64,000 bases of DNA from Schizochytrium sp. TIO01 (Eukaryota > Sar > Bigyra > Thraustochytrida > Thraustochytriidae): NCBI GenBank assembly GCA_004764695.1, contig SMSO01000033.1, forward strand, positions 821,001 to 885,000. The letters run 5' to 3'. This document shows positions 1 to 43,911 of the stretch, piece by piece; the first letter of the stretch is position 1; the number at the start of each line of letters is the position of its first letter. The translations under genes and the position numbers were made by a program. The notes under the pieces are model-generated. The model did no database searches. It was not told the DNA's origin and saw only the letters and a list, made by a program, of their open reading frames with translations.

Positions 1-443
1 CCTATGAGGCCCAACACGCTCGTTGACTTTGGCGTTTAGGATTCGAGAGAGAGCTGGAAAACGTAGTTTGTGTCACAGTTTGTGCTGTTCAAGAAAGGTT
101 GACAAGAGTCCACAAGGAGCAACCTTCGTGTGCAGGAGCCCAACTTAAGATAGCACTCTTGTTCCCAGGGTCAACGTTTTCAGATAATCTTCTCCACGCT
201 ACGGCAAAAGGATCCGCGAGCTAATTCTCTTCACAAGAACCCGTAACCTTTTATAAACGAGAGATCTATCGTCACAATCCAAGCAGTACGAATCAAAACC
301 AAGCTGGCGCTTCTATACTTGGCCAAGACACGTCGTTTTGCCTTTGAGCCTTCCTTGCACAGCTCACAGCTTCCGGCCGAACCACACTGCTTCACAACCG
401 GTTGATTGTTGCAACGAGGATAACACGAGAGTCAAGAGCTTTC

Positions 444-23983: not shown

Positions 23984-26372
23984 CAGAACCGAAGGAGAAA
24001 CTTTGCCGCTAGCAGACCTTCTCGTGCCAGCTTTCTCAGCAAGTAAAACCAGTAGCAGCAGGCACTATGTCTTTTGTTGTGGCGATAATCTCTCGAGCCG
24101 CCCGCAGAGCAGACCTGCTGCTGCTGGGAGTGAAATGATTTGAATCAATTTTGCTCGTTCATCTGAAATGAAATGAATAGTCGAATGAACGATTTATCCA
24201 ACACGAAGCTCAGGTCCTCTAGATACCATAAACTATAGGACTTGGGCGGTCGTCCTATGCACGCATAGTACCCAGTAGGGGTTAGTAGCAAGAACTGTTG
24301 TACATGAAGGATTAGTCGTAAGGCACCCGACGTGGAACAAAATATTACACATCATTGCCTTGGACCTGGGAGTTCGCTCATTTCAGATCATGTACGACGC
24401 CATGTGGCTGTTTTGGCTTGTGTTTTCTACCCAAACTGAAGACTCAAACTCAGTACCTTGACTAGTGCGAGTGGTATAACCCTGATGACCGAGCCTTTGC
24501 ATGGAGACAAAAACCAAAGTCTTCTCTGTCGCCGTACCGACACAATTCAAGGTAAACAGGCTCAAAAGAATAAAGACAAAACTGCCTTGAGACGTGCATA
24601 CCTACGCGCACTCCTTAAGATTAAGAACAAAACTCCCGAGATTCACCGCAAGCTTGCTCTTTGGTTCTGTGAAAACTACTGTGTTATCCTGTTGCCTAGA
24701 TTTTGAAGCCTCTCAGATCGTCACCACGTGGACAAGACGGGTCAAAAGCAAGATAACTCCAATAGAGCGTCGTTGAGGGCACACTAGCTTCTGCCAAGCG
24801 CTTATTCCTAAAGCCGAGCTTCCCCCTGGTGTAGACTTGTTATTGCTCTCTCAGAATTTAATTTGATAGATCAGGCTGTTTGCAATGACTTGATCTGGAT
24901 AGACTTTCTAAGTCACGTTGAATACCTAAAGAAGAGTGGAAAATGCAATTTGATCACCAGGGAATTACTTTTTACATGTATAAGCTTTATGAAGATAGTA
25001 ATAGAATATAAATAATTAGGGAAAAGGCTGTGCAACTGCATCGAAAGGTTTACTCTATCTTGCTTCTTCATGAGTACTCCTGTTTGAAGCTTACACAACT
25101 ATATCGTTGTGCATTCTCTTTGTTGAAGTGCCTGCCTAACCATTTTCTTTCTGTCAGTGTCCTGGTCCTTTGGTAATGCTCCTCTTTCTCTGTTTGACCT
25201 TTCTATTCCTTAGTTCCGATCGGGTGGTGGAGTGTATTGTTACATAAGTGATCTGTTCTTGATCAATATTACATGTTTACTACAAAAATAATGGGAAACC
25301 CCACGATCAGAAATGCTCTTTTTTGCTTGCAATTTTGAGTAGGATAATTGTTTCTGCTACGTTCATGGTAAATGAACTAAAGCATGAAATAAACAGCATC
25401 GTTCGTTACATGATACTGTGACCGTGCTTTGGATTAAGAATAAATAGCCTTCACTCGTCTAAATGTTGAACATTTGAATGCCTTATTTTTAGCTAAATGA
25501 GAACAGAACGATCAAGGAATAGCGTTTTTCAGTAGCACAGAAAACTGAAGTATATGTAAATGTAGTCCAAAGGCACTTGTAGGTAGTAGCAAAGTTGTCT
25601 CAGAACCAAAAAAGAAAAAGAGCGTTAGTAAAAGTGGGGAAGAACAGAACATGCATGTAAGTAGTATTTATTAGTATATCTGTTCTGTATTTAGAATAGA
25701 ACAATTTTTAACTTTTATATATATTTTTGTTCTTTTAGAGAAATAAAATAATAAAAAGTTCATACTACGACTTGTTCTTTTATTTTTTTATTTTTTAAAT
25801 TTAAAATGTAATCATGTGGATTCCTCTGAGACGCCCTACAATGTAATTGCTCCGTAGAGCTCCCCCCCCCAAAGACTAGCAATGGAAGCACTAAGTACGC
25901 ACACTTCAGAAAAGCACATTAAGGCTTAACTATTTTGTTTTGAACCAGCTTTACTACGACTATTATGTACTTTTGGACTCTGCGTTTACTACCGAGAACA
26001 TCTTTCCTGATCTGTTCTGTTCTTCGTCAAAACTAAAATATTTATAGGAATAACCTTGACTCGTGAGGATTTCAAACCAAAGCATAGTCACAGTAATATG
26101 CAATGATTGAGACTGCTTCTTCATGCTTTAGTTTTAGAGCTCTTCATTCGCCGTGAACGTAATAGAAGCAATTATCCTACTGAAAATAAAAAATAAAAAG
26201 GTGCACTTGAGATCGTGGGGTTTCCTAACCTGAATATTGTATTTTCTTCCTCTCTTTTGGTTTCTTTCAACTCTGTGTATTTTTATTTTCTCTTTCTTTT
26301 GGCTTGGCGGTTGCAGAAGACAAGTTCGAAAGCCCGCAAAATCTCAAGCTTGTCAGCTCTTCAAAAGTGCCG
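23984..26372. other. intergenic region with nuclease relic and polypyrimidine tract
   Basis: Contains the decayed Fanzor/TnpB copy described separately (24354-24776) and otherwise no gene. From 25,680 to 25,810 it is AT-rich. At 26,235-26,325 a long T/C-rich tract ends in GGTTGCAG just before the GCP4 frame, which looks like a 3' splice site of an intron in the 5' untranslated region. Confidence 0.6.
24309..24776 (+). pseudogene. decayed Fanzor/TnpB-type RuvC nuclease, copy 1
   Basis: Reading across frames gives the ordered landmarks of the TnpB/Fanzor (OrfB_IS605) nucleases, which are RNA-guided DNA nucleases of IS200/605, IS607 and eukaryotic transposons. RuvC-I: IIALDLGVRSF at 24351-24383, catalytic Asp codon 24363, where families usually read LDPGVR. 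Next comes a Lys/Arg-rich bridge (KQAQKNKDKTALRRAYLRA) from about 24550. The IHRKLALWFCENYCVILLP block follows to 24695, then RFEAS with the RuvC-II Glu (24705-24707), reached by losing one T of a TTTT run. It ends RRVKSKI where families have KIxSKTAR, then stops. Breaks: a stop after the RuvC-I segment, at least two frameshifts, and no zinc ribbon or RuvC-III. Which branch (Fanzor or bacterial/giant-virus TnpB) cannot be told from here. Confidence 0.75.
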
Positions 26373-29300
26373 ATGCTGCACGAGGTTCTCTTGGCACTCC
26401 TCGGCCACGAGGGTTCTCTTATATCCCTCCACGTTGGCCGTCTCAACCGTCGTCGTGCTCCCAAAGCGTCGCTTCTCCACGGAGGTCACACTGGCGACCT
26501 CGTCAAACATCTCAGCGACGCCAACGGCGACGTGCAAAGTGGCTCTGAAAATGAATCTGAGATTGCCAACACCGATGGTGATGTTGGCGATGACGAATAC
26601 GGTGTATACGCTCGCGTGAGTCGCCTGCTTGTGCCTTCAGCCTTGTCTGGGGCCGAGGCAGCTGCTCTCGAAGCATTAGCGAGGCAAGGCGCCTTGCGTT
26701 TGGCTCTCGAGGACTTCGTGCAGGGTGTGGAATCTTCGCAGGTGGCTTCCCAGGATGGAGGCTCACTCGTGCTGAGGGCCTTGTGCGAGGGAGTTCAGGA
26801 TACACTAGCTTGGCAGCATGCCAAGGTCGCCGAGGTCGAAGAAGAGGCTCGGCGCACTTCTGGGATGACAATTTCTAGGGTGAGATATCTCATGCAAGAC
26901 TCAGAGACTGTTCTCGACAGAGTGTACGTGTTGTGCTGCGAGATTGAAAAAAAGGATCTCAAAGGAGGCCAGGTGCTTGAGATTGTGCACGAGATGCTCG
27001 CCAGGTGCGGTGTGCAGGCGGTACGAGAGCGCCTCGCGAAAATTCTTAGAACGTGCGTGAGGGTGCTGCTTAACCTCGTCGAGGCTTGGACAGTGCATGG
27101 TATTTTACTAGATAGAGCTCACGAATTCTTTGTGCAGGAAAGGACTCACAAAGTACATGTTCCGGGCCAGTATGCATCAGGACTCGAGGATATGGACGAA
27201 TGGGCAGACTCAAGAGGACACCATCCACTCATTGCAGAGTACGAATGGAAGTCGCGATTTCGGATTCGGGAGGCTATGCTTCCAACCTCGTTCTTCCCCC
27301 GAGACCTTGCAGACCTCGTGCTGTTTGTGGGCAAAGCAACACGAGTCCTGCGCCGATCCCAGCTCATGACTTCAGATTCACAAGATTCAGCTTCATTATC
27401 ATTATCACTATTATCATCTACAGCAAATTCATCTTCAGAAGAAGAGGATAAAGAGGATGGCAAGAAAACAAACCATGGTCAAATGGCTTTGCAAGGATAT
27501 CTGGATGCCTTGCATCAAGCCCGCGAACGCGACCAACTCGACATGGTCTTTGTGACGCAGGCGATTCGCAGTTATTACAAGGCCGTAGCCAGGGACCTGC
27601 AAAACCTTGTCGTGAACCATTCAGGGCTTAAGGAGCACCTCTCCTTCACGCGGGACTTCTTTTTATTGGGTCAGGGTGCCTTCTATTCATTCTTTATTGA
27701 GCTAAGCCGATCTCTCTTCGCTTCGGACCCTCGCGCCGCTCTGCCTCAAGCTGAGGCCGCCGTTAACAGCGGGCCATGGCGAGAGGCTGCTGAACAACTT
27801 GGCAGTGATGCATGGCCAAATATCCAGGAGCGTCTCTTTAAACAGCTTCGCATTGTTCTACTACGTCCTCGCGTGGATTTTCGCGCAGGTTTTGGCCAGG
27901 CACACCATGTTCCTGTTGGCACATCGCTTGCAGATTCCTCCTCTGCAAACCTTCGTCATTTTCACAACCATCGAAACCACCAAAATCAAAGCATGGACTC
28001 CGCTTCTGTGGTTTCCTCACGAACTCGCCGTTCCCTGTATTCCGGTAGCGCTGCAAGTTCTTCAACTACTGAACCTCACGCAAGTTCATCTGGCCGCGGA
28101 TCCCTTTCAGACCTTGTTCTTGTAGGACCTAGCTCAATTCGAGGTAATGCTATTGCCGTTGAAGGTACGAGCGGAGGTCTCTGGCACGGCCGCAAGTTGC
28201 CCGTGGAGCGCGGTTTCCAAACCTCTGTAACCTTTAGGCATAGAGTCAATGACGAAGACACGCTCAACCAAAATGTAAACCACATACGACCTCACGATAA
28301 CAACAATATCGCACCGGACTTTGAGGTTGCCATCTGCGTTCAGCATGATGCAAGTTTGGGCCCTACTGCGTTATGTGCTCTAGATGACGCCGTGGACCTT
28401 GACCACCAGGCGCACCTGAACTCTGATCAATCACGAACTGCCTACGGAGGGCTCCGCAATAGCGTTTCATTCGTAGCAAGGGTAGCCGCAGATCTTTCGG
28501 CTGTGCGGGTGATGGTCTGTCGCGAGGGCGAGACGCTCTTTGCTAGCGATCCTCGAGAACTAGTGCATATGGAGGGGTTACAAGAAAGAACACATCGTAT
28601 GAACGTCGCATACAAACTGCAAGGGCAAGACCGCGTGAAGATGGTGGCGGAGATCGACCTCCGCGACGACGATGACCACGTGTTGGCACAGGTGAAGGTG
28701 CCGCTAGAGATTGGTGCCGAGATGCAACTGGAGCGCGGTAGTGGCAGGGCGTGGGTTGGCGTGCTACTCACAGGACCTGGCAAGGTTCTTGCGTGGTTCT
28801 TGAGCGCCGATGAGGCCGGAGACAAATCTCGCGCCGAGTACGACCCGTGGAGGTCGCTCTTAAATCTGCACATGCATGTTGAGTGGCCGCTACACCTCGT
28901 TCTGACGCAGAACGCGCTTGACCAGTACGGTATGCTATTTAGGTTCATGCTGTGTCTGCGTCGTGTGGAGACCGCGCTCAAGGAAGCCTGGGCAGCACTC
29001 AATCAGACACAGTTCAAGGGCGTAGTACTACGAGGTGACTCCGCACAGACAGCTCGCCTCATGACACTCTGGCGTTTGCGCTCAAGCATGGCATACCTCG
29101 TGAACAACCTACAATACCATCTGCAAGTGGACGTTGTGGACGCCCTGCACAAACAACTACTTGACCAAATCAAAACGGCATCGGATTTCCAACTTGTGGA
29201 GGAAGCTCATGAATCATTTATGGAGGCGCTTATCACGCGCTCCTTTCTGCACAATAAGGTTATTCGGAACACAATTGACACCGTTCTGCGCAGGTGTCTG

Positions 29301-29609
29301 CGTTTCTGCAGCCTTGTCGACCGCTTCGTTCGCCTTGAAGGCCTCAAGGCGGGCCAAGCATCAGGATCAGCAGCAACAGGATCACAACAACAGCGACTCG
29401 ATCCCGACAAATATGTGGAGCTGGATAAGGCCTTTGACGATCTGGCCGTATCATTCTCAAGGGATGCGACCTTCCTGTATGCTCTTCTCACACGCATCAA
29501 CTCTAACCTGCTCCTTCGCGTCGACTTCAATGGTTATTTCTCCAAACTCGCACAAGGTGACGTAAAGTACACAAAGAAAAAGCATCAATCAAATTCGTCG
29601 TCTTCTTGA
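26373..29609 (+). CDS. GCP4: gamma-tubulin complex component GCP4
   Basis: Subunit of the gamma-tubulin ring complex that nucleates microtubules at centrosomes and basal bodies. The ATG at 26373 gives 1,078 residues beginning MLHEVLLALLGHEGS, the invariant GCP4 N terminus, so the upstream open 23 codons (no ATG, preceded by a TTGCAG acceptor-like site) are excluded. GRIP1 features include LRALCEGV, ISRVRYLM and a HGILLDRAHEFF block; GRIP2 features include WPLHLVLTQNALDQY (about 838) and MAYLVNNLQYHLQVDV (about 906), which contacts gamma-tubulin. Metazoan GCP4 is about 670 residues. The excess is mainly one insertion at about residues 496-830: a Ser/His/Asn-rich linker, then a folded-looking segment. 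The last ~15 residues past the conserved VDFNGYF core overlap the convergent ATPase gene by 25 bp. Confidence 0.93.
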   Translation: MLHEVLLALLGHEGSLISLHVGRLNRRRAPKASLLHGGHTGDLVKHLSDANGDVQSGSENESEIANTDGDVGDDEYGVYARVSRLLVPSALSGAEAAALEALARQGALRLALEDFVQGVESSQVASQDGGSLVLRALCEGVQDTLAWQHAKVAEVEEEARRTSGMTISRVRYLMQDSETVLDRVYVLCCEIEKKDLKGGQVLEIVHEMLARCGVQAVRERLAKILRTCVRVLLNLVEAWTVHGILLDRAHEFFVQERTHKVHVPGQYASGLEDMDEWADSRGHHPLIAEYEWKSRFRIREAMLPTSFFPRDLADLVLFVGKATRVLRRSQLMTSDSQDSASLSLSLLSSTANSSSEEEDKEDGKKTNHGQMALQGYLDALHQARERDQLDMVFVTQAIRSYYKAVARDLQNLVVNHSGLKEHLSFTRDFFLLGQGAFYSFFIELSRSLFASDPRAALPQAEAAVNSGPWREAAEQLGSDAWPNIQERLFKQLRIVLLRPRVDFRAGFGQAHHVPVGTSLADSSSANLRHFHNHRNHQNQSMDSASVVSSRTRRSLYSGSAASSSTTEPHASSSGRGSLSDLVLVGPSSIRGNAIAVEGTSGGLWHGRKLPVERGFQTSVTFRHRVNDEDTLNQNVNHIRPHDNNNIAPDFEVAICVQHDASLGPTALCALDDAVDLDHQAHLNSDQSRTAYGGLRNSVSFVARVAADLSAVRVMVCREGETLFASDPRELVHMEGLQERTHRMNVAYKLQGQDRVKMVAEIDLRDDDDHVLAQVKVPLEIGAEMQLERGSGRAWVGVLLTGPGKVLAWFLSADEAGDKSRAEYDPWRSLLNLHMHVEWPLHLVLTQNALDQYGMLFRFMLCLRRVETALKEAWAALNQTQFKGVVLRGDSAQTARLMTLWRLRSSMAYLVNNLQYHLQVDVVDALHKQLLDQIKTASDFQLVEEAHESFMEALITRSFLHNKVIRNTIDTVLRRCLRFCSLVDRFVRLEGLKAGQASGSAATGSQQQRLDPDKYVELDKAFDDLAVSFSRDATFLYALLTRINSNLLLRVDFNGYFSKLAQGDVKYTKKKHQSNSSSS

Positions 29610-30976
29610 GTTTCCTCATATTCATTCTCGTTGACCTCTTGAACATGGGCTTTGGTTCCGTTCGTCGGTGGCACCAGAGGCGTCTGGTTCTGGCCTGCAC
29701 CAACTGGCGATACGGCGTTTTGCATTGCTTGCTCCATGAATGCACGAACAAGGTGCTGCATTTGGTCTCCGGAGAAGCCTTGCTTTGCTGCAGTTTCGTC
29801 TTGATACTCGTAAGCGGCTTGACCAGTAGCTTTAACGTCGTTCATGGCTGAGAGAAAGTCACGGATGTTAAGCTTCCGCAGCTGCGTTGTCTCCTCCTGC
29901 AGATCTCCATTAGTGCGGCACTCCTGTGCAAACTCACGGAATGGTAGCATGGCTGCAGCCTGACAGAGCTCCTTAATGTCACTACCACTATACCCTTCGA
30001 GGAGCTGCGAGAGTTTGCCAAGATCTTTTGCGAGTGAAGGGTCAAGATCTTCATCTTGCAGATAGATGCGCAAGATTTGTTTGCGCTGCTCTGCACTTGG
30101 CAGGTCAAGCTTGAAAGTACGTGGCATACGCCGCAGGATCGCCTGATCCACGTCCCACGGCCTGTTTGTGGCGCCCACCACGATGACTCCGTAGGCACGG
30201 CCTGCGCGTTGGATATCTTGAGTGAGCAAGCCATCCCAGAGAGCCATGAACTCGGCCTTCATGTTGCCCTGTGCGGCATGGTCATCACTAGTCCGTTCGC
30301 GGAGAAAAGAGTCAATCTCATCAATGAAAATCACACACGGCGCCAGCTTCCAGGCCAATGAGAATGTCGCACGCACGAGTTTCTGCGACTCACCAAACCA
30401 CTTGTTCATTGTAGTAGACATTTGCAAGTTGATGAAGGCTGCACCGGACTCGCGAGCGATGGCTTTGGCCATCATAGTCTTACCTGTGCCGGGAGGACCG
30501 TACAGCAAAATGCCCTTTGGGGGGCACAGGAGCTTGCTGCGGCCCTCAAAGAGATCCGGGCGGCGAAGGGGTAGAGCGACAATGTCGAAGATCTCCGTTT
30601 TCACATGATCAAGGCCACCAATCATGTCAAAGTTCACGTCAATATCCTCAGGGTAGATAAGATCGCTCGAGACAATTACTTCGTACTCATTCATCTCAAA
30701 CGGTTGCCTACCATTTGCAAGGAGTTTCTCCACAAGCCTGCGCTTGCTTGCTTTGGCTGCGTCTTTTTGTTTGCGCATCGGGTCCATCTCCCGCATAAAG
30801 TATTTGATTCCGAAGAACAGCAGTGCATATGAGGCCGTCATGGAGACCAGCTCAATTGCCAAATTTTGCAAAACTGCTGCTGTCGAAGGCGACGAGCCGC
30901 CATTCGATCCTGCTGTGGAGTCCTGCGAACCACCATGAGCTTGTGGCCTGCTCCCCGATTCACCTCCTGTATTCAT
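29585..30976 (-). CDS. Msp1/ATAD1-type AAA ATPase
   Basis: Membrane-anchored AAA ATPase that extracts mislocalised tail-anchored proteins from the mitochondrial outer membrane or peroxisomes. The ATG at 30976 gives 463 residues; the open frame 5' of it has no ATG and begins just after a TTGCAG acceptor-like site. Seen: a polar Gly/Ser N terminus, one membrane span at about 41-60, a basic linker, Walker A GPPGTGKT (160-167), the pore-loop MNKWFGES (190-197), Walker B VIFIDE (215-220), sensor 1 GATNRP (268-273), paired arginine fingers in RRMPR (282-286) and a Gly-Ser-Asp sensor 2 region (YSGSDIKELC). This order matches Msp1/ATAD1. An acidic, Pro-containing C-terminal extension (~60 residues, ending EDDEFD) is longer than in human ATAD1. 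Its last codons overlap GCP4 antisense. Confidence 0.93.
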   Translation of the reverse strand: MNTGGESGSRPQAHGGSQDSTAGSNGGSSPSTAAVLQNLAIELVSMTASYALLFFGIKYFMREMDPMRKQKDAAKASKRRLVEKLLANGRQPFEMNEYEVIVSSDLIYPEDIDVNFDMIGGLDHVKTEIFDIVALPLRRPDLFEGRSKLLCPPKGILLYGPPGTGKTMMAKAIARESGAAFINLQMSTTMNKWFGESQKLVRATFSLAWKLAPCVIFIDEIDSFLRERTSDDHAAQGNMKAEFMALWDGLLTQDIQRAGRAYGVIVVGATNRPWDVDQAILRRMPRTFKLDLPSAEQRKQILRIYLQDEDLDPSLAKDLGKLSQLLEGYSGSDIKELCQAAAMLPFREFAQECRTNGDLQEETTQLRKLNIRDFLSAMNDVKATGQAAYEYQDETAAKQGFSGDQMQHLVRAFMEQAMQNAVSPVGAGQNQTPLVPPTNGTKAHVQEVNENEYEETQEDDEFD

Positions 30977-33235
30977 GGTGCTTTCTCGAATTCTTGCTAC
31001 TGCTGCCTGCAACCACAATGAATATCTTCCTCACTTTTATGCAAACTTGCGAAGCGTGCAACCAAAAGGATATGTCTGTATAATCTCTATTCCCAAGCAC
31101 AACCTAGCCAAAGCTTAGCGTGCACAAAGACCTGTTTCTTCAGCCCAAATACAATGTGGAATATGAAATCTGCAGCGAGTACCGAAACTCTAAAGAGCTT
31201 CCTATTTTTGCAGTTCAAGTAGCTCTATTTAGGCAAGCAAGCAAGTCAACAAGCCAAGCTGAGCCCTTCGCTGCCTCGCTCAAAGATACCTCAAGATTTG
31301 TTAACCTCTCAACTCCAACAGCGTAAACAGTTTATACTAGGAGGTATATACGTGAGTAGATGGATAGATAACTGGATGGGCCTCTTCAGGCAGCCTGGCG
31401 ATCTCGATCTCGAGGCTAATCCGGTCGGCTGTGCTTCGTCCTCGCCCAGCCCGATACACAGTGACGTGGAATACACCACGTGGGCTGCTGCCAGTGGCCT
31501 TTCTCCTTCCAGCCGCACTCGCGGATCGCAGAGCGGTCTTTGGAGGCGATGGATACGGGTCTGCTGTCTTGCTTGCTTGGTATGTGTCTGTCTCTCTGTC
31601 TGTCTGTTTCTCTTTTCTCCTTTCTCTCTTTTCCTTCTTTTTCTAATGCTTTTTCTCTTTCTCTTTCTTTCTCCCTTTCTCTCACTACTATTAGTGGCGC
31701 TACTCCTCGATGGACTAGCGCTACCCTACCAGCCGCTAGTTGAAACTAGAGGTAGGTATTCATTCTCCAGAGGCGTCCTTTCTTTCCTTGTGCGGAATGG
31801 CCACAGAAGGGTATTTGAGGTTCTGCAAGTGGGCTATGCGCAGTACAAGTGAGCTATTTTCGCAATAGTCTACTTGTCGGAGTTTAGCCAAGTGCCGAAA
31901 GGACTCTCTCCTCAGGTTCTTCGCCGCCTCTGCCATAAGCGAGAAACGTGCCGTTCTGGAGGCTCTGGCTGGCCATGACCGAAACGTTTCCTAAGACGCT
32001 CTCGTTGAGCCAGTTGGATTTCCATACGCATGTGCTGATTGACAAGGAGCCCAAGAACGGTCCTTGAAGCCAGCAAATGAATGGAGTTTAGCAATTAAAT
32101 AAGTAAGCATGAATTTGGAGATGGTCGCCGACGCTGTTGTGATGTTCGAGCTTGGCGAAATTAGCTCCAAAGATGGGCTCCGAAACGGAGTGATCTAAGT
32201 TCGCACTGAGGTTGAGAAGTAAGTAACGACACACACTGGGAGCCACGAATTAAATGGCCAAACTCTCTCCATGTGGTCGAGGAAGTCCATAACGGTAAGC
32301 TGGAAAAGCTCGTCGTTCCGAGTGCCATCGTGGCATAAATCTCGCTATTACTTCGCAATTGTCGAGCTGGTTGAGAATCAATTTCCTTTCGGTCCTCTCA
32401 AAATCAACTTTAACGCGGGCAGGGAGTGGACACGAAAGCTCTCTTCTGGTCAAAGCGAAAACTTGTCTTTTGCCGACAGCACGAGTCCCACGTTGAGGAT
32501 ATCGGGGTCTGATTCGCCCTCCAATTGAGACTTGAACACCTGCGAAATGTGAAACACGGAGAAAATGTGGTGCTGTCTACTTTTGCTGGTTAAGACTTTT
32601 GGGATTCTGAGGAAATCAGAATATTGGCTGTTCAACAGACGAACTCGATGGCGTGATTGAGGAGAGGCTCGCAAGAAGTTCGCGATACAGGATGAGGGAT
32701 GTGTACCAAAACAAAGCGGCACGCCGGTGCCACGAAATGCCTGGTTTTCCTTGCTTTTTATAAAACCTGATTCGCTTCAAAGGATTCTTTTTCTTTAATC
32801 TAAAAGAGATATAAGAAGGCATAAAGGATGGTTTGCTCTAAAATCTTATCCAGCATGCTGGGCAAGAGAGTTTGATTGTCTAAGAAAGGTGTTTTCAAGC
32901 CATGAAATAGTTGGTTCTTTGTAACCTGTGAAGAACCAAAACTTTCACAGCCTTTAAAAAAAAACATTGTATGTGTACAATCTTCCTGGTTCTCCGGTTC
33001 CTTTTCCTTGCACCTGTAGAATGTTGTATCATATGCAACATTGTATCGTAGCTCACAAAATTCATAACTTCTTGCATGTATATGCGAATGTGAAATCGTG
33101 TACTCTCGTCACGCGTGTGCAAAGCCTTGATTAAAATCTAAAACTATTTGTAATAGTAAAGTACCTAATACTATCTTTATGTTTTAAAATTTTTTAATTC
33201 AGTTTTTTATTAAAATTAAAATATATATCATATAC

Positions 33236-33726: not shown

Positions 33727-36700
33727 ATGCAACGCAGTCGTGCTGCAGCCCAAGGTGAGGGCCATAGACCAGGAGGAGCACGGGAATTGCCGCGGGTTGC
33801 CAAGGTGAAGTTTCGTTCTCCTAAGAAAGGCCGTGGAAAGAGGAACAGTTCAGGAAGACCACCAAGTGCAACACAAGTGCAGAGACGGAAACGTCAAAGA
33901 GAAATTAAAGTTATTGATAATGCATTAGTCGACCATGCTCTGCTGAGGGACGGCGAGCACAACTATTTGCATCAAACAAGCAACAACAACAGTCATGAAA
34001 GCGAAGATGTTGGCTATAAAATTGGCAATAAAATCGGTGAATATAATTACACGAGTGAATTTGAACAAAATGACCCAAGCTTTGAATCTGGGCCGGACAC
34101 GGACCGCAAGGTATCAAAGTTGGATAAGGCCGCACGGAGAAGTGGCTTCGTGTCCGCAGCGATGCACTCTCCAACCATGAGAGCATCTCCCCGAAGGCTT
34201 CCAGGCCTTAAGTTTGCGAGACCACCTGGTTGGGATACGCAGAAGCAAGCAAAACACTATGTAACTCTTCGAAACTCAGTACCGAAGGAGGACTTCCCTC
34301 GCCACCTTGCAGACGGTATTCAGCATTTGGAAGACTATGAGCGCGTGCGTAGTCCAACAAGTCCCCCTCTAGACCAAGGGCTCCACCAAAGGCTTCCTTA
34401 CACTAGCACAAAGTCAATTACTCAGCAAGAGGCTATTGCTCAGTACCACGAGCTTTTGCAAAAGGTTCATGCGCTTTCACAGGCAGAGAGGCTTCGAAAA
34501 GAGAGGCAAATGACTCCTGGTAGTCATGGCGATATTCGTGACGATGACGGCTTTGGTGAGGAGGAAGCACTCTTGGGAAGAGGAGAGAGCGCTGGCGCGA
34601 CCTCAAACCGTGCGCCTCATCCATCTGAACTTGAAGACTTGCCGTTCGGTCACTTGGCATTTCATCATTTGAGCTGCGAACCTGCAGAAGAAATTGATTT
34701 GCGTCACTGGCGAGAAGAGATATCTGATGACACACTTTGCAGACTACTTTCGTGTACTTTAGCATGCCGTGTACTTGATATCCGTGGTGCAAAGCTCATT
34801 TCCGATGTTGGATTGATTCGTGCAGTTGGCTTTTGCCCACATTTGGAAATTCTTCGGATCGCTGGTTGTGAACGTCTTACGGATGATGGTATAGAGTCAG
34901 CTCTTAACATCTGCGGACACAATCTTGCCGAGTTGGACTTGGCAAAGTTTGCTTCTCCTCCTTTACAACATGAAGATTCGCTGAGTGGTATGAGCACAGA
35001 ATTATGGTGTAACTGCTGTCAAGGTCCGCGCCTTCGTTGCGCAGACCAACCACGTAATGAACTCTTTCGCTCTGGAGAAAGGTCAACCTCTCTGAAAATT
35101 TCAACTAAAGCTCTTTACTGTCTTGCACAGATATGTATACGTTTAGAGGTCCTTGTGCTAAGAGAACAACATGAAGCTGTAACAAATGACACTATGATAG
35201 CTATAGCTTCAAGCTGTGGTGACTTACGACTTATTGACGTCGGAGAATGTGATCGTTTAGGACAAGAAACAATGAAAGCCCTTGGTCGGAAATGTGGACC
35301 GAAACTCCAAGATGTTCGAGTTTCGAAATGCAAATACATCAACGATCAGGGGCTACGATCTCTTATCGGGAAAGCTTTTCATCTACGTTGTATTGATTTA
35401 TCAGATCTACAAAAAATTTCTGATGATGGTGTGAGGATATTTATGGACTCAAAAACAATGTGGGGCCACATTGAACACCCTGGGTTTCATAATGTTCATG
35501 CTGTCTACTTGCGTAATTGTCACGAGTTAACTGATATATCTTTAGGCTGGATTGCATCAGGTTGTTCCCAACTTGAGACTTTAGACGTTCAGGGTTGCGA
35601 AAATTTAGGGGACTTTGGTCTACGAAGCATAGGAGGACTCAACCATCTGAAAACTCTCAATATGCAAGGTTGTGATGGTATTTCTGACTCGGGGATATTA
35701 CAGCTCAGTTCCAATGCTAAAGTGGAATTTGGACTTGAGGCTCTCCCGGAGCTCCACACAGTCATTCTTTCTAGATGTAGCAGAATATCTGAGAAAGGAC
35801 TTCTTGCTCTAGTTCAAACTCTCAGTGGCTCGTTGAGTCGCCTTGAGGTATGCTACACAGGCCGAATATCGGACGATTTTATCCGTCATCTCGCCCTGCT
35901 ATCGAACAATCGTCTACGATGTCTGCGTTTATCTGGGCATAATAACATTACGGCTGCCGGAATTGGTGCTTTGGGACAAAGATGCAAGTACCTCGGAGAG
36001 CTTGATGTAGACTGCTGTGAAGGGTTCGCAAACGACAGCCTCGTTAGTTTGCAAGTACTCCGGCATGTGCACTCCTTGAATTTATCGTATTGTCCCCAAC
36101 TTCAAGGTGTACTTGCAGTTCCAAACTGGAAACTTCAAGTTTTAAGCTTGCGGGCTTGCACAGCCCTGGATGATGGTGCCTTACTAACCCTTCTAGGTCT
36201 GTGCCAAGAGCTCCGCACCATTGACCTAAGTGAATGCACAAACCTTACATCTCGTGCATTCTCATCCATTTTACGACGCCGAAAGGAAATGCCACCAAAT
36301 CTGGATATGTTAAACGTCAAATCTTGTCCACATGTCTCAGACGCTATTATGAAAGAAATTGCATCTGCCTGGAGAACCTCGGGGCTAGAATGTGAATTTG
36401 TAAATGCGGACAGATTTCGAGGAATTCGCCCCAATCTTGCATATCAGATGGCTCTTCATTCGAAAAATCAAGTTGAAGCCAAACGAAATGCTACTCTTGC
36501 ATCAATCATGATTCAGTGTCGAGTTCGTCAGCGTCAAGCATACCAAAAGTTACTCATCTTGCGCCGAGAGGACTACATGCGCAGGACTACCGCCGCAACC
36601 CAAATTCAGCGCATAGGACGGGGTTTCCTTGCTCGGACTTTTTATTATGAATTGCGCCATGTATTGAATTTTTTGGCATTACGCACACAATATCTGTATC

Positions 36701-39700
36701 GACAATATCGCATTGCAAAAATCACAAAACGAGCACTTGCGATTTGGAAGTCTCGCACGATTTCCCGTGCTTTTTTTGCATGGTATGAGAACGCCCAAGC
36801 ACAAATTGACGAACGGCGAACGGAGGCTATTCGCAAGCTTGTTCAGCAAGCCGCCGATTTCTTTGCAAACACTCTTTTGAAAAATAGTTGGGCTTCCTGG
36901 CAAAACCATGTAGTGCACCGGCGTTGGAAGAAGGTTCAATATCCGAAGGCAGACGCATTTTATACTGAGCGGGCAACCTGTCGATATTTTGACTTATGGA
37001 TAGATAATGCAAGACCTGGAATTCTGCGTCGCAAGAATTTAGTCAAAATCTTCCTTTTGTGCCTTCCTTTAGAAGTGCGAAATGCACAAGTCTCTAGGAG
37101 TAATATTTATGCAGCATCGCGCTTTTATAGGCGCACGCAACGTTCATATGCATTTTCTGCTTGGTTTCAAATTGTTCTGCAGGCAAGAGAAAACATTAAA
37201 CTTGCTGATCAGTTATGCTATAAGCATTTTCTCGCAAAACCACACGGCCCAGCCCATGAAATCTTAACGTACTGGCGTAGATTTACAGTGTACAAAATGG
37301 AGATTAAAGAAAAAGAGCGCGTATTACGTTCTCATATTGTTACAATGAGACAGGCTCGAGTAGTCGCTCATTTAGCATATTTGGCAGGTCGACGAGCGCT
37401 TCATGTGAAACAAACTGCAGTTGCGCGCACGCTTTTCTCAGCACAGGAATCCCGAAAAGCATTTAGACGCTGGATAGAGTATCAACACGAACTTCGCGAA
37501 GCAAAAGCAAAAGCGCAGCGCGCATTAGCGTTCATGCGAAACGCTAGTTTGGTACGATCTTTGCATGCATGGAGGCAGGCGATTGAAATTCGTAAAACCT
37601 ACGACGTTAAAATCGAGCGAAGTATTGCACGCATGCTCCAGCGGTATGTTGCAAAATGCTTTCATACATGGAATTATGTCGTCCGACAACAAAGGGCTTT
37701 CAAAGAACGATCACTCCGACGAATTGCGTCTCGGCGTCTAGCTCATGTCTTAGATTGCTGGAAAGACTTCGTAACTGAACATCGCATTCGCCGGCAGTCG
37801 CAACTGCAGAGTTGGTATCTACTAAATAAAACAGTTGTGAGAATCCAAGCCCGATGGAGAGGTGTTCTTGGACGCGAACAGATTGAAGATATGCGTCTAT
37901 TGAAACAATTTATGGCTATTAAGATACAGCAATTTTGTCGCATCGTACTTGCCAAGAAGAGAGCATTTCGAGCCGAGCGCATGAAAATCTTGCGCCTCTA
38001 TATATCTGAAGAACATGAGCGAGATCTTATGGCTTACGAAGATATGGTAGCACAAGACATGCAAAAGGAGTTTAAAGCTGCTCGGTTGGTACAACAAAAC
38101 TTTCGTGCTCGACATGCACGGGATATGGTATATTTTGCAAAGCGAGAACTTGCACGTCAAAAAGAAATTAAGCGACGCGAACATCAGCATCAACTTTTGC
38201 TGGAGCATGAAGCGAAGATGGAGGAAAGAAGACTTGAGCAGGAGAAAAAAGACCACCTCACAAGCAAAATTCAAGGTGTTGTGCGAGGTATGATTGCTCG
38301 GAAAAGGTACATGGTCGTTTGGGCGCGTGCTTACATGGATCGCCAAGCTACGAAAATCCAAAGTATCAGCCGCTTACGTGCTGCTTTGCATAAACTTGCA
38401 GCAGAAAGGCGATGGAACGCACTAATCAAACAAACAGCCAAGCAACAGCGGACAAATGCCCGTATCTTACGCGCAATGAGGCTGAAGAACCGTTCTCAGC
38501 AGAAAATGGCGATGGTGCCACTTGATATGCTTGGTATCCACCCTGATACGTTTACATTGGACCTGAATCAGCTTCGTAAGGAAGTAATGTATGATTTTCG
38601 GGACTGGACGAGGTTTGCTCGCAGCCAGTTTGACGCTTATCGTAGAGCCGGAATGAACACTAGCCAGCGCCAAGAAATTATTCGAGCGTTCTATGAGCGG
38701 GTGAAAGACGAACAATGGATTACCAAAGGTAACGCTATTAAGATTGTGAGTAAGCAGAGCCCTTATCGAGGTGAGACAGGATATGTACTAAATGTACAAG
38801 AAGTTTCCACTGTTCCTGGCGGTGCTCAAGCCTCTATTCGTCTCGATCGTACTGGCACTATCATTCTTTTGCCTTTGATGACAACTCCAACCGCCTCAGA
38901 GGATAGTGTAAGCAGTATGATTCGCGTGAAGAAGATGGACAAGGATTTCGCCAAGACAAAGTTGACGCCAGAGCTTGTACATAGTAACAGAGAAGCACTT
39001 ATTGAATATGCAGAAGGCTTAAAGGAGGAAACTAAGCAGCGCAGAGCTGCTTTACTTATACAACGGCACTTTCGAGGTAAAAAGTTCCGTAAATATTTCA
39101 AAGAAGCATATGCTAAGCAAGTTGAGATTGACAAGGCCAAACAAGAGAAGCTACTGAAGCTTCTTCGAAAACTTGGTCTTGAAAATGCTCGTACAGGGCG
39201 TTTGTTGGTAGCTTTGGGACTTGTATGGCCACGTTACGTGCCAGAAATGCCAGATAAACCATTTGCAGTTGAGACATGGGCAAAAAAGAGACAAATGTAC
39301 TATGAAATGTGGAATTATCGGCGCTTTCAGGTTCTACTTGCACGTGACGAGCGTAAACTCCGCGTGCGCGACCTCAAAAAGAAGTTCAAGAAAGATGAAG
39401 ATTTTGCTGAAGACTCTGAGGAATTGACAAAACCTACCTTGTTATTGCAGAATGGAGAGAGTCGACCCGGGACTAACATGAGTGTCCGAGAACCAAACAG
39501 CGTTACTCATATTCCCGCAGATGTGATTGATGAAGCAGGGGGCGGAGGAGGTGTTGAGGCAAACAACACCAGCATTGTTGCCTTAGAGGTACCTAGCCTT
39601 CCAGATACTCATGTCTCATTGTTTCGAAGAAGCTTGTTGGACTCGTTACTCGCTGCGGAAGGTCATATGTCCGAGGAACAAGAAGCGGTCATGCCCTGGC

Positions 39701-42700
39701 GTATACGAAACCCATTCAAAGCAGCCTTCTGGCGTGGCGTGTATGCGATGACAGATCTCGCACTAGCGCCTGCAGCAGAAGCCATCCTTATTAAATCTCA
39801 AAAGAAACGCGAGAAAGGAGAAATTCCCCTGGCAATTCTTTTGCAAATTCTTGCCAAAGCAGTAGGCGGTCCTCAATGGCGCCAAAGTCCCATCAAACGA
39901 CTTACTTGGGTGGGTGTGTATAATTTTGACCAATTGCATGAGAGTTGTCATGTCACAATGGGTGGTGCTGCTGTATTTCACGGCACATGGAATACACGAG
40001 GTGTACCGCATGGTCTTGGGTTTTTGGAACTGCCGGAAGGAAGGGGTTTGGAACGAATTCGTGAAAAATATGCTATATATCTTTTGCCGAACAAAGACGA
40101 TGATGAGGAGAGTGAAATGTATCGTAGCTTAATGGCATCTCGAAAACAGCTTCGCCATGACAAGTGGGTTGAAAAGACTCGACGTAAAATTAGAGAGGTG
40201 TCACGCAGTCTGAACGAAATATCCAAAAATACTGATGAAGAAAAGAAAGAAGAATCCGATGACGATGATGGAGAGGAGTACCAAACAGATACTGATGATG
40301 AAATCGTAGCAGACCCTGAATATATTGGACGCAAAGGTATTTCCGGGCGTCTGCAAATGAGAGAAGACATTGTCGCATCTGAGAGCGCACCAAGTACACC
40401 CTCTATGACAATGCGCCAAAACTCAGACGACAGCTTTCGAATTTTTGGGGACGCAACTGGTCCTAACGATTTGCTTTATGTTACCATCGCAGCAAAGGTC
40501 AACAATGGCGAAATTGTTGGCAATGTGAAAATCCATTTTAAGACTGGTGACACTTATGAAGGTGGGTACTTTGGAGAGAAAAAGCACGCTTGGTTGGATG
40601 CTTCACGCGCAAGTGTGGATTTTGTCAAACTTGCTTACGATGACGATGTCGAGGCTTGGATGCCGTCTGAAGAAGAGTTTGATGCTTTGGAGACAGTAAA
40701 TCGCTGGACAACTCAAAGCAACATCGTGTACGAGGGAGAAAGTGTGACACATCACTTTCGTCCGAATCACCTGCAAGGTGTAGTGCGGGTCACCTGGCCA
40801 GAAGATGAGGTATACTTTGGTGAAATGAGGGAAGGAAAGAAATATGGTTTTGGGCGGCTTAGTATGCCAACTGGTGACGAGTACAGAGGGCAATGGAAAG
40901 ATGACCAGCCCCATGGAGTTGGTATATATTTTTGGGAAGAGAATCGAACAGCATATGCTGGAGACTTTCTCAATGGTTTTCGTCAAGGTTTGGGTAAGCA
41001 GACCTTTCCCGATGGATCTCGGTACGAAGGAGAATATAAACAAGATCAACCCACGGGTACAGGAACTATGATGAAGCCTAATGGCGATGTGTACGCCGGA
41101 GAATTCTTGGAAGGTAGCTTCCACGGAAAGGGTCTTATGAACTACGCTGATGGTTCAGAATACGAAGGATCATGGAAGAAAAACCGCCGACACTCAAGCA
41201 TAGGAGAAACCAGTCGATACATCAATACAGAGGGTGACGTCTACCACGTGACGTTTGTAAACGATGAAATGGATGGGCAGGGTACCTTTTTACAGGCTAA
41301 ATTGAATCCATGGAAACTCGTGAAACATGGTGTTTGGAGACATGGGAAGTTATCTCACTGGGTAGGCGTGAGTATCAATATTGAAAGTACCAATGAATTC
41401 TGCTCAAGGTTTGTAATATATGGTGACTATAGTAGCCAATATGCAGCTCTGGTCGCTCAAAATCTTCCTGAGCTACCATCGGGTGTTGATCCAGATGACA
41501 GACGAGTAGAACAACATGTCAATGGAATTTTGCGACGGGCCGGGCCTTTGGCAAGTGCCTCTGTTGTAAGTCGATCTGAGAAAGCACTTGCGGAATTTCA
41601 ACCCAAATATGATGCACTCCTTGAGACAAAGGAAGCAGCAGACGAAAGTCTTGCACGCGCAACAAAGCAATGGACCGCCGATAAAGAAGCCCATGATGAA
41701 CAAGACATGCTTTATGAGAACTTGAGTGCAGAGCTAGAGAATCTTCGCTTAACCTTAAAGGGATTTTGGCGCAGAGGCACAAAGGAACATCGCCTGAAGA
41801 GGTCGTTCAAGCGTGCTTACAAGCGTTTGCGAAGTTTCGACACCTTGGAATGGTTTGCTTGCAAAATGACAACTTTTACACCTCCACTCTGGATCGGCCT
41901 ATGGAGAGCAATTGCAAAGATACACCTCCCAGAACTAGACAAACGAAGCTACCAATCAAACGATATGGAAAGGCTTTGCAACAGTGCAGCGATCAATCGA
42001 GACTATGGCGAACACTCGGCTCTTCTTCGAGACTACAATATAAAGCTTCTTGATGAAATTGCTTTTTACAATGTTTATGAACGCACCAAGCAAAAGCAAA
42101 TGTTGAAGGAGGTTGGCAGTATCGTTCATCAACGTGACTTAAATCCTCGAAACAGTGAGCTAACCCAAATTTGCCCTCTAGCTGGACCCTTAATTTCTTA
42201 TGTGAAAGCGGCATATAATTACACCGTTGCAGCTCGGCCACTAGCGGAAGTGATGGAGAAGGCCTTAATGAAACTGGATGAAGTTGAACACGCAAAGTCG
42301 TTATTACAGACACGAAAAGAACAGCTACACACAAGCGAGACTAAGTTGTATGAGTGCGATCGCGCTGTGCAAATTGCGACCATTGAGCTCGAAAACTCCA
42401 AGGTACGCCTTCATGAGATTCAATTGAATCTTCAGCGTGCTCGTGAATGCCAGGCGGTGGCTCAAGAGGCAGCTGAATCTGAGCGCCTCCTTCATAAATT
42501 TACGCGAGCAGAGGAGCTTGATGATAGCCCTATTGATCCTTGGATGAGCCGAGAGGACGAGGTTATTTTTAATCACTGCCTAGACGCAATTGAGTATATG
42601 ATAGACCTATTGGAAAACGTTGAGCCTGAAGTATGGGATTGTATGTGGACAATGAAAGAGTTGACTGTCGCTCGGTTTCAATATCAAGAAGAATATCAAA

Positions 42701-43911
42701 TGCTAGAGGACGACCCGCATTTCGTGCCACCAGAAGTGCGGGATGCGATGGGCGCTCTCGTGAATTGCGTCGCAGGTTTCGATAAAGACGGCGCAGAAAT
42801 TGAAGTGCAAGACGCTTTGAACGAGATTCTGTACAAGGTTCAAGGTGGACCTGAACCCGAGGTTGTCGAGGTCCTGGATGCTGCGATTACACAGGGAGTG
42901 GAGATTTTTCTCTTCGAGGATCGGGCTGAGAAGAGACAAGCAAAGTTCCAAGGTAAACGTGTGGTGGTGACAATGGCCCCGGAGAGGGAAGGCGCACGAG
43001 TGCCACGAAAGTTTGGAGTTTGTGAAACAACTTACGATTATGATGTACCTATCCAAGCCCCACCAGAACCTGGGACTGGTGTAATATATTGTGAAATGGG
43101 GACTACGCAAGTCTATGGTTTTGAAGACACGTGTCAATTTCTGGCAGAAATTCGCATCGGGGATCTACTGTGTCTTCCCGATCCTAATGATTCTGCTGGC
43201 CTGGTAGAGCGTACGGTCGTGAGTATTTGGTATGACTATCACTTAGAAATTGATTTACCTTTTCCGGATGAGCTGGTCATGGAAGGTTGGACAAAGCAAT
43301 GGGCATTTCGTAAACCAGATGCAGTTCTCGAGTACGTGCCGAAACAATTTGCCACTGTTGAACTTGATGAAGGAGGCACGATTGATGTTGAGATTGAGCA
43401 AGTGGAGCTTGCCGAGGAGGAGATTCAGGCAATGGCAACTACGAGTGGTGAACTGGATTCAGAAACTAGTGATTCTGATGATTATTCTATCTATTCTGGC
43501 GATGAAGATTTTCCATTGGATGAGGACACACTTGGTGATAGCACGGGCAGTGCGAGACCTGGAGGTAGATCTTCAATGTCCGTGGGCACACGGCGAACAC
43601 GAGTTTCGCGTGTCTCTGGCAGATCTCAAGGTCGCCGGGGCCGGCGTAGGTCCTCGTCTGCTGCTTTGCAGATTTGGCAACGCTTTGAGGATGAGCAAGG
43701 AAACTCATATTGGGCCCAGATGAATGCTACAGACCCAGGAATCACAACATCCTGGCAAGAACCTTCGTACGGACCGAACGTGTGGTTTCAGTTTGAGGAT
43801 GAGGGCACCGGGTTTTACTATTTTTTCAAACCAAGCACCGGGGAAACAACATGGATCGAGCCCACCATATCCAACTCGAGCACTACCTCCAGCTCCGCCA
43901 TTAGCAAATAA
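33727..43911 (+). CDS. giant LRR-IQ-Sfi1-MORN-dynein-stalk-like-WW protein
   Basis: A single unbroken frame of 3,394 residues from ATG 33727. Residues 1-300: basic, disordered. About 307-882: tandem cysteine-type leucine-rich repeats (LxxLxxxxCxxITDxGL, as in AMN1/FBXL). About 922-975: two IQ motifs. About 1000-1355: Sfi1-like helical repeats with regularly spaced Trp (AFFAWYE, AFSAWFQ, AFRRWIE), the centrin-binding type. About 1368-1560 and 1774: six more IQ motifs such as IQARWRGVLGRE. About 1655-1718: a KOW/SH3-like strand block (GETGYVLNV). About 2070-2490: at least six MORN repeats (DGSRYEGEYK type). About 2615-2925: two coiled coils flanking a globular segment resembling the dynein heavy-chain stalk. 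About 3315-3381: one degenerate and one good WW domain. No motor or kinase. Best guess is a centrosomal/basal body or axonemal scaffold. A poly(A)-type AATAAA follows at 43975. Confidence 0.93.
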   Translation: MQRSRAAAQGEGHRPGGARELPRVAKVKFRSPKKGRGKRNSSGRPPSATQVQRRKRQREIKVIDNALVDHALLRDGEHNYLHQTSNNNSHESEDVGYKIGNKIGEYNYTSEFEQNDPSFESGPDTDRKVSKLDKAARRSGFVSAAMHSPTMRASPRRLPGLKFARPPGWDTQKQAKHYVTLRNSVPKEDFPRHLADGIQHLEDYERVRSPTSPPLDQGLHQRLPYTSTKSITQQEAIAQYHELLQKVHALSQAERLRKERQMTPGSHGDIRDDDGFGEEEALLGRGESAGATSNRAPHPSELEDLPFGHLAFHHLSCEPAEEIDLRHWREEISDDTLCRLLSCTLACRVLDIRGAKLISDVGLIRAVGFCPHLEILRIAGCERLTDDGIESALNICGHNLAELDLAKFASPPLQHEDSLSGMSTELWCNCCQGPRLRCADQPRNELFRSGERSTSLKISTKALYCLAQICIRLEVLVLREQHEAVTNDTMIAIASSCGDLRLIDVGECDRLGQETMKALGRKCGPKLQDVRVSKCKYINDQGLRSLIGKAFHLRCIDLSDLQKISDDGVRIFMDSKTMWGHIEHPGFHNVHAVYLRNCHELTDISLGWIASGCSQLETLDVQGCENLGDFGLRSIGGLNHLKTLNMQGCDGISDSGILQLSSNAKVEFGLEALPELHTVILSRCSRISEKGLLALVQTLSGSLSRLEVCYTGRISDDFIRHLALLSNNRLRCLRLSGHNNITAAGIGALGQRCKYLGELDVDCCEGFANDSLVSLQVLRHVHSLNLSYCPQLQGVLAVPNWKLQVLSLRACTALDDGALLTLLGLCQELRTIDLSECTNLTSRAFSSILRRRKEMPPNLDMLNVKSCPHVSDAIMKEIASAWRTSGLECEFVNADRFRGIRPNLAYQMALHSKNQVEAKRNATLASIMIQCRVRQRQAYQKLLILRREDYMRRTTAATQIQRIGRGFLARTFYYELRHVLNFLALRTQYLYRQYRIAKITKRALAIWKSRTISRAFFAWYENAQAQIDERRTEAIRKLVQQAADFFANTLLKNSWASWQNHVVHRRWKKVQYPKADAFYTERATCRYFDLWIDNARPGILRRKNLVKIFLLCLPLEVRNAQVSRSNIYAASRFYRRTQRSYAFSAWFQIVLQARENIKLADQLCYKHFLAKPHGPAHEILTYWRRFTVYKMEIKEKERVLRSHIVTMRQARVVAHLAYLAGRRALHVKQTAVARTLFSAQESRKAFRRWIEYQHELREAKAKAQRALAFMRNASLVRSLHAWRQAIEIRKTYDVKIERSIARMLQRYVAKCFHTWNYVVRQQRAFKERSLRRIASRRLAHVLDCWKDFVTEHRIRRQSQLQSWYLLNKTVVRIQARWRGVLGREQIEDMRLLKQFMAIKIQQFCRIVLAKKRAFRAERMKILRLYISEEHERDLMAYEDMVAQDMQKEFKAARLVQQNFRARHARDMVYFAKRELARQKEIKRREHQHQLLLEHEAKMEERRLEQEKKDHLTSKIQGVVRGMIARKRYMVVWARAYMDRQATKIQSISRLRAALHKLAAERRWNALIKQTAKQQRTNARILRAMRLKNRSQQKMAMVPLDMLGIHPDTFTLDLNQLRKEVMYDFRDWTRFARSQFDAYRRAGMNTSQRQEIIRAFYERVKDEQWITKGNAIKIVSKQSPYRGETGYVLNVQEVSTVPGGAQASIRLDRTGTIILLPLMTTPTASEDSVSSMIRVKKMDKDFAKTKLTPELVHSNREALIEYAEGLKEETKQRRAALLIQRHFRGKKFRKYFKEAYAKQVEIDKAKQEKLLKLLRKLGLENARTGRLLVALGLVWPRYVPEMPDKPFAVETWAKKRQMYYEMWNYRRFQVLLARDERKLRVRDLKKKFKKDEDFAEDSEELTKPTLLLQNGESRPGTNMSVREPNSVTHIPADVIDEAGGGGGVEANNTSIVALEVPSLPDTHVSLFRRSLLDSLLAAEGHMSEEQEAVMPWRIRNPFKAAFWRGVYAMTDLALAPAAEAILIKSQKKREKGEIPLAILLQILAKAVGGPQWRQSPIKRLTWVGVYNFDQLHESCHVTMGGAAVFHGTWNTRGVPHGLGFLELPEGRGLERIREKYAIYLLPNKDDDEESEMYRSLMASRKQLRHDKWVEKTRRKIREVSRSLNEISKNTDEEKKEESDDDDGEEYQTDTDDEIVADPEYIGRKGISGRLQMREDIVASESAPSTPSMTMRQNSDDSFRIFGDATGPNDLLYVTIAAKVNNGEIVGNVKIHFKTGDTYEGGYFGEKKHAWLDASRASVDFVKLAYDDDVEAWMPSEEEFDALETVNRWTTQSNIVYEGESVTHHFRPNHLQGVVRVTWPEDEVYFGEMREGKKYGFGRLSMPTGDEYRGQWKDDQPHGVGIYFWEENRTAYAGDFLNGFRQGLGKQTFPDGSRYEGEYKQDQPTGTGTMMKPNGDVYAGEFLEGSFHGKGLMNYADGSEYEGSWKKNRRHSSIGETSRYINTEGDVYHVTFVNDEMDGQGTFLQAKLNPWKLVKHGVWRHGKLSHWVGVSINIESTNEFCSRFVIYGDYSSQYAALVAQNLPELPSGVDPDDRRVEQHVNGILRRAGPLASASVVSRSEKALAEFQPKYDALLETKEAADESLARATKQWTADKEAHDEQDMLYENLSAELENLRLTLKGFWRRGTKEHRLKRSFKRAYKRLRSFDTLEWFACKMTTFTPPLWIGLWRAIAKIHLPELDKRSYQSNDMERLCNSAAINRDYGEHSALLRDYNIKLLDEIAFYNVYERTKQKQMLKEVGSIVHQRDLNPRNSELTQICPLAGPLISYVKAAYNYTVAARPLAEVMEKALMKLDEVEHAKSLLQTRKEQLHTSETKLYECDRAVQIATIELENSKVRLHEIQLNLQRARECQAVAQEAAESERLLHKFTRAEELDDSPIDPWMSREDEVIFNHCLDAIEYMIDLLENVEPEVWDCMWTMKELTVARFQYQEEYQMLEDDPHFVPPEVRDAMGALVNCVAGFDKDGAEIEVQDALNEILYKVQGGPEPEVVEVLDAAITQGVEIFLFEDRAEKRQAKFQGKRVVVTMAPEREGARVPRKFGVCETTYDYDVPIQAPPEPGTGVIYCEMGTTQVYGFEDTCQFLAEIRIGDLLCLPDPNDSAGLVERTVVSIWYDYHLEIDLPFPDELVMEGWTKQWAFRKPDAVLEYVPKQFATVELDEGGTIDVEIEQVELAEEEIQAMATTSGELDSETSDSDDYSIYSGDEDFPLDEDTLGDSTGSARPGGRSSMSVGTRRTRVSRVSGRSQGRRGRRRSSSAALQIWQRFEDEQGNSYWAQMNATDPGITTSWQEPSYGPNVWFQFEDEGTGFYYFFKPSTGETTWIEPTISNSSTTSSSAISK

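Follow-up and report, generated by a model that had tools for sequence, protein, structure and literature searches.

The subject of this study is P0001, a giant scaffold protein read as one open frame of 3394 amino acids (33727..43911) in a 64,000-nucleotide stretch of DNA from the thraustochytrid Schizochytrium sp. TIO01 (contig SMSO01000033.1, positions 821,001 to 885,000; hereafter the window). This frame and all of the P0001 features described below lie on the + strand. Near its C-terminus the protein likely carries, to judge from structure prediction, a stalk-like hairpin without a motor. A dynein stalk normally belongs to a motor. On balance we slightly favor reading P0001 as a large scaffold of the cytoskeleton, probably belonging to the flagellum or basal body, with a diverged, motor-less dynein-type stalk; as for the tip of the hairpin, its sequence tilts a little towards kinship with dynein. 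An earlier note, made from the letters of this DNA alone, had proposed a dynein-stalk-like module at this site. The open frame, coordinates and peptides that it quoted are as claimed, residues 2612-2928 reading exactly so, and of the module itself we recover a remote, above-shuffle match that spans the later half of the tip together with coil 2, with neither a Pfam match nor a dynein-like entry half.

The region in question consists of a spacer of ∼135 residues flanked by two long coiled coils. We modeled P0001 residues 2590-2935 with AlphaFold2 from the single sequence, as one chain and with no alignment. Both coiled coils that had been claimed appear in the model as helices, the first (CC1-like) at residues 2611-2684 (41557..41778) and the second (CC2-like) at residues 2819-2931 (42181..42519), the latter also revealed by the profile described below. 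When confidence was averaged over blocks of ten residues, the first helix reached pLDDT 85-98 at about 2610-2669 and the second 87-98 at 2850-2909; 60 residues of each coil are thus predicted confidently, in a hairpin-like arrangement with helices in between. From this prediction we infer an antiparallel pairing of the two coils. Between the first coil and the tip lies a strongly basic stretch (residues 2676-2703, 41752..41835) with a net charge of +11 over 28 residues, followed by the tip region itself (residues 2704-2838, 41836..42240), which contains a PP at 2719-2720.

For sequence comparison with dyneins we built a stalk profile from the organism's own genome (alignment A1), using 16 of its 18 dynein stalks; left out were one dynein gene that is split over two frames and one with an in-frame stop. 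With filters off, this profile gave the stalk-like region of P0001 (P0002) a score of 18.0 bits in an alignment that covers profile positions 146-290, beginning midway through the tip and reaching into coil 2. Among 1,419 scored shuffles of the region (420 plain, 499 local and 500 heptad-preserving) not one reached 18.0 bits and the best had 14.0; shuffles returning no scored line (80 plain ones and 1 local one, out of 500 each) were not counted. Real coiled coils nevertheless score near P0001, an SMC coil segment attaining 15.1 bits with the same full-stalk profile when 149 tiles were compared. Coils alone are therefore poor evidence, and the tip must be judged separately.

We accordingly ran six dynein tip profiles on the 135-residue tip without the long coils, and compared its scores with those of 5,000 shuffles and 962 real windows, the latter drawn so as to avoid both the surroundings of the tip in P0001 (window starts 2650-2850) and the open frames belonging to three other genes that match the Pfam dynein stalk family PF12777 (MT). 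Four of the six profiles scored the tip at 8.7-9.7, values attained by 0 of 5,000 shuffles (541 to 918 of which, in these four profiles, had no scored line and were counted as not reaching). Of the 962 real windows, likewise, 0 attained the score of the tip with four of the six. The small helix profile (h5) gave the tip 6.2, reached by 5 of 5,000 shuffles. In comparisons with tiles, two tip profiles gave P0001 margins of 7.3 versus 6.3 and 7.8 versus 5.2, and among 417-residue tiles the tip core scored 6.4 bits, behind the three PF12777 frames described below and ahead of the best remaining tile at 3.3. As described in PMC6629372, the microtubule-binding tip of dynein is composed of six helices. 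The entry half of the tip, which holds the PP, behaved differently: its profile gave -1.5, a score reached by 1,598 of 5,000 shuffles and by 399 of 962 real windows, and found no match anywhere in the whole of P0001. This pattern locates the likeness in coil 2 and the half of the tip next to it, not at the PP entry. The PP half as such is, by these profiles, not beyond chance and, although a PP is indeed present, the failure of the entry-half profile counts against the argument of the earlier note that it forms a dynein-like entry. The tip signal as a whole is weak but repeated, and it appears at the sole place predicted by the architecture.

The spacing of conserved residues was also compared. 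The peptides FDTLEWF and TPPLWIG begin at residues 2704 (nt 41836) and 2718 (nt 41878), and LAGPLISYVKAAYNY and RPLAEVME at residues 2818 (nt 42178) and 2837 (nt 42235). The motif LAGPLISYVKAAYNYTVAARP (42178..42240) is aligned by the own-genome profile to the AAxLCxWVxAMxxY region of dyneins, a motif which the earlier note had given for dyneins and which is real: in all 16 own-genome stalks the Trp (15/16; Phe once) is followed by a Tyr at a spacing of 7 and the Tyr by an invariant Pro 9 residues later. P0001 has Tyr at the place of the Trp, 106 residues after its PP, and keeps the Tyr spacing of 7; the Pro of its coil 2 follows the Tyr after 6 residues rather than 9. In the own-genome stalks the PP column lies 80-108 residues before the Trp and reads PP in 13/16, the other three having AP, PS or PG. 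A pattern written to these spacings (PP-70..115-aromatic-[VI]-x5-Y-5..9-P) fits P0001 as well as 14 of the 18 dynein genes; of 20,000 shuffles, 14 contain it. Elsewhere, among 66,192 residues of stop-free stretches with overlapping loci counted, it was found at one place, a TPR stretch. Since the pattern was set after the sequence had been seen, its rarity is a description and not a test.

P0001 and the dynein stalk share similar coil and tip lengths, a PP before the tip, the sequence aromatic-V-x-A-x3-Y where coil 2 starts, and a similarity to the own-genome profile above that of shuffles. Unlike the dynein stalk, P0001 gives no Pfam match, is unmatched by profile in its entry half, has Tyr for Trp and a coil-2 Pro three residues early, and lacks the stalk-base motif, linker and AAA ring. 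The base motif LxxxLxxExxRW is invariant in the 16 stalks of alignment A1, whereas in P0001 the match ends at profile position 290 and no RW follows later in the coil. Its absence is what one would expect of a stalk mounted outside an AAA ring. No Pfam family for AAA, linker or any other dynein part was detected in the whole of P0001 at E ≤ 10, and, of all places in the genome matched by DHC_N2 or AAA_6 at E ≤ 0.001, none falls inside the window, in agreement with the claim that no AAA motor is present. We do not class P0001 as a dynein or as a member of PF12777, because it falls short of the curated threshold and has neither the base motif nor the motor.

The strongest competing explanation, which we consider distinctly less probable than dynein kinship but far from negligible, is that P0001 contains an ordinary long coiled-coil hairpin, like the arms of SMC-type proteins or other scaffolds, capped by an unrelated helical tip, and that its dynein-like residues are convergent and were picked out by a reader aware of the motif. 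Several results weigh on this side or against kinship with dynein. The check that the earlier note had proposed failed, PF12777 (curated cut-off 24 bits) having no match at E ≤ 10 whether just the region or the entire P0001 was scanned, nor is P0001 among the 23 places that this family finds in a profile search of the whole genome. HHalign with the single P0001 sequence returned a probability of 8% (P 0.0042), and in single-sequence phmmer comparisons background sequences, not dyneins, ranked first, although the scores of dyneins exceeded the background on average. A search of PDB sequences with the region gave one ribosomal match at chance level, and scanning it against Pfam and NCBIfam yielded nothing relevant. 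Even where tip profiles match, the slimmest margin over real windows was 9.0 versus 8.9 with one profile, 5 of 962 real windows beat the tip with a fifth, and over the whole of P0001 the tip is the best site at only 0.1-4.0 bits (E 0.003-0.06). The shifted Pro counts against a dynein-type stalk. The unmatched PP half, the SMC coils at 15.1 bits and the TPR stretch that fits the same spacing pattern all favor the competing explanation. Against it stand the scores of the isolated tip, which exceed every shuffle with four of the six profiles and every real window with four of six, and the dynein-like aromatic-to-Tyr and PP-to-aromatic spacings. SMC-type arms resemble P0001 in their long two-helix hairpin; SMC head or hinge families have no Pfam match in P0001 at E ≤ 10.

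Structural comparison does not decide between these explanations in favor of dynein. The best Foldseek match of the model was 9e5c_5k, a 3425-residue chain of a Trypanosoma brucei axoneme (E 4.3e-3); chain 5j of the same entry is a dynein heavy chain. In a VIA-align comparison that covered 178 of 328 chains, those longer than 3,000 residues being left out, the dynein stalk 8i3j was outranked by 17 entries, many of them unrelated coiled-coil proteins. The fold comparison is not specific to dynein. The tip itself adds to the doubt, since it has no confident fold: its pLDDT is below 50 in both models, and the model of the tip with short coils has a mean of 40.5. The earlier note had expected paired antiparallel coils capped by a small helical domain, and the model suggests the pairing without a confidently folded cap. 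It had also named the lack of a profile match together with the lack of paired coils as grounds for abandoning the idea; the former is what we found with Pfam, and the latter is not what the model suggests. A third reading, in which the coils form parallel dimers with a second copy instead of pairing in one chain, so that there is no stalk, seems improbable. In its favor, a single chain was modeled with no alignment, pTM was 0.53, and pLDDT is 30-77 where the two coils approach the tip and in the short helices between them, but a single sequence sufficed for high local confidence over 60 residues in each helix and VIA-align placed hairpins among the best structural matches.

We also searched the same genome for other tips of this kind. 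Its 23 PF12777 matches include 20 that derive from 18 heavy-chain genes (two genes have two matches each), every one with a DHC_N2 match within about 7 kb. The remaining three (C24:2704491, C34:2642424 and C33:1536376) have no DHC_N2 nearby, and neither DHC_N2 nor AAA_6 was found near them at E ≤ 0.001. The first, with 54.3 bits in the genome search, lies in an open frame of 2592 with SAM, IQ and ankyrin (2321 residues scanned), and at sequence level it is matched by solved dynein heavy chains as well (8glv_Fm, E 1.1e-13). The second (29.2 bits, frame of 1349) has no other Pfam family at E ≤ 0.01 in the 1069 residues scanned, and the third (24.4 bits, frame of 2358) has WW, p25-alpha, TPR and IQ in the 2281 residues scanned. 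In a protein-level scan the first two pass the PF12777 cut-off and the third falls just below it (21-22 versus 24 bits). The matches run from profile positions 89-124 to 206-210 of 344, leaving most of both coils unmatched. Going by these putative gene models, the genome encodes dynein tips with no motor detected beside them, independently of how P0001 is read. Like P0001, these are multi-domain, scaffold-like frames with no detected AAA motor; two of them share IQ with P0001, and one shares WW. They keep a recognizable tip and outscore P0001 on the tip core (13.2-37.3 versus 6.4 bits), another point against a dynein origin of the latter, while P0001 keeps both coils with a more diverged tip. 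The 'grafted' origin that the earlier note had given the P0001 stalk would be an inference, and the genome holds these three clearer motor-less dynein tips.

No relative of the stalk-like region was found in the collections searched. In its own genome the region found only itself and one match (E 0.029) with internal stops; viral contigs and prokaryote genomes, not places in which a protist protein is expected to have kin, gave none. The C-terminal 459 residues of P0001 likewise returned themselves and three short matches, including the WW part. Among the papers listed in a literature search, none had a title or abstract opening on motor-less dynein stalks or tips, which does not prove that none is in print. 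Among the genome's other dynein-like loci, C30:8175742-8178504 (an open frame of 5946 amino acids with DHC_N2 and partial AAA_6) and C33:4489217 (a frame of 1907 amino acids with DHC_N2) have no stalk match nearby, and are possibly diverged dynein-like giants without a recognizable stalk. The stalk reading of the dynein heavy chain at C35:2216361 contains an in-frame TAG and a seemingly out-of-frame stretch, which an intron, an error or decay of the gene may explain.

The remainder of P0001 fits the scaffold of LRR, IQ and MORN parts that had been claimed, LRR and MORN exceeding their Pfam cut-offs and IQ remaining under it. The leucine-rich repeat region (35206..36246) was identified by Pfam scan and PDB similarity; its LRR families pass the cut-off within residues 494-658, with weaker matches up to 840, and it is similar to F-box/LRR proteins in PDB. 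Counting of Trp revealed a Trp-rich helical stretch at residues 1007-1377 (36745..37857): over residues 931-1450 there are 14 Trp where 9.2 are expected, and 5 of 13 gaps measure 30-37 residues. By eye these helices look like the centrin-binding repeats of Sfi1; the Sfi1 family had no Pfam match in the whole protein. The best of four IQ stretches lies at 39040..39102, the whole-protein score being 18.8 against a cut-off of 20.3. The MORN repeats (residues about 2363-2490, 40813..41196) pass the Pfam cut-off and are similar to solved structures of the ciliary MORN proteins RSPH1, FAP266 and FAP207 of radial spokes and the central pair, matches that are limited to the repeats (query residues about 2348-2513). 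Close to the C-terminus there is a candidate WW domain (43774..43863; 20.6 bits, cut-off 26.9). About 2.7 kb from the P0001 gene we noted genes for a gamma-tubulin complex component (26304-29606) and an AAA ATPase with AAA_lid_3 (29585-31018), arranged tail to tail with overlapping frames.

If P0001 does carry a motor-less dynein-type stalk, its two helices would pair antiparallel into a hairpin holding a small helical tip between them, and this tip would descend from, or imitate, the microtubule-binding domain of dynein. The tip, with the +11 basic stretch adjacent to it, may contact the microtubule and dock on tubulin. The hairpin would serve as a passive arm of roughly 9-15 nm (60 to 110 coil residues) that keeps the tip off the body and tethers the LRR/IQ/MORN/WW body to the microtubule, while LRR, MORN and WW would bind other partners. 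Calmodulin or centrin on the IQ and the Trp-rich helices could render the tether calcium-responsive. In dynein, as described in PMC6629372, tip and ring communicate through the stalk by a half-heptad shift in coil registry. Without an AAA ring and the stalk-base motif the arm of P0001 cannot be driven by ATP as in dynein, and any registry shift in its coils would arise from load or partners. A bolder proposal, which we regard as rather unlikely, is that in this protist lineage the dynein stalk has become a mobile domain that was exported several times into motor-less scaffolds, on three occasions as a tip lacking the full coils and on one as the whole hairpin of P0001, and that P0001 might work in reverse of dynein. 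Binding of the tip, or load, would then shift the coil registry and report to a body loaded with calmodulin or centrin at its IQ and Trp-rich parts.

Should the likeness of P0001 to dynein be convergence, the protein would be an ordinary coiled-coil scaffold, and the PF12777 matches in the three motor-less frames would still hold. If the likeness is one of kinship, a full stalk hairpin and separate tips without a motor would show that the microtubule grip of dynein is reusable as a tether or sensor, and would offer natural motor-free stalks in which to probe the link between tip affinity and coil registry.
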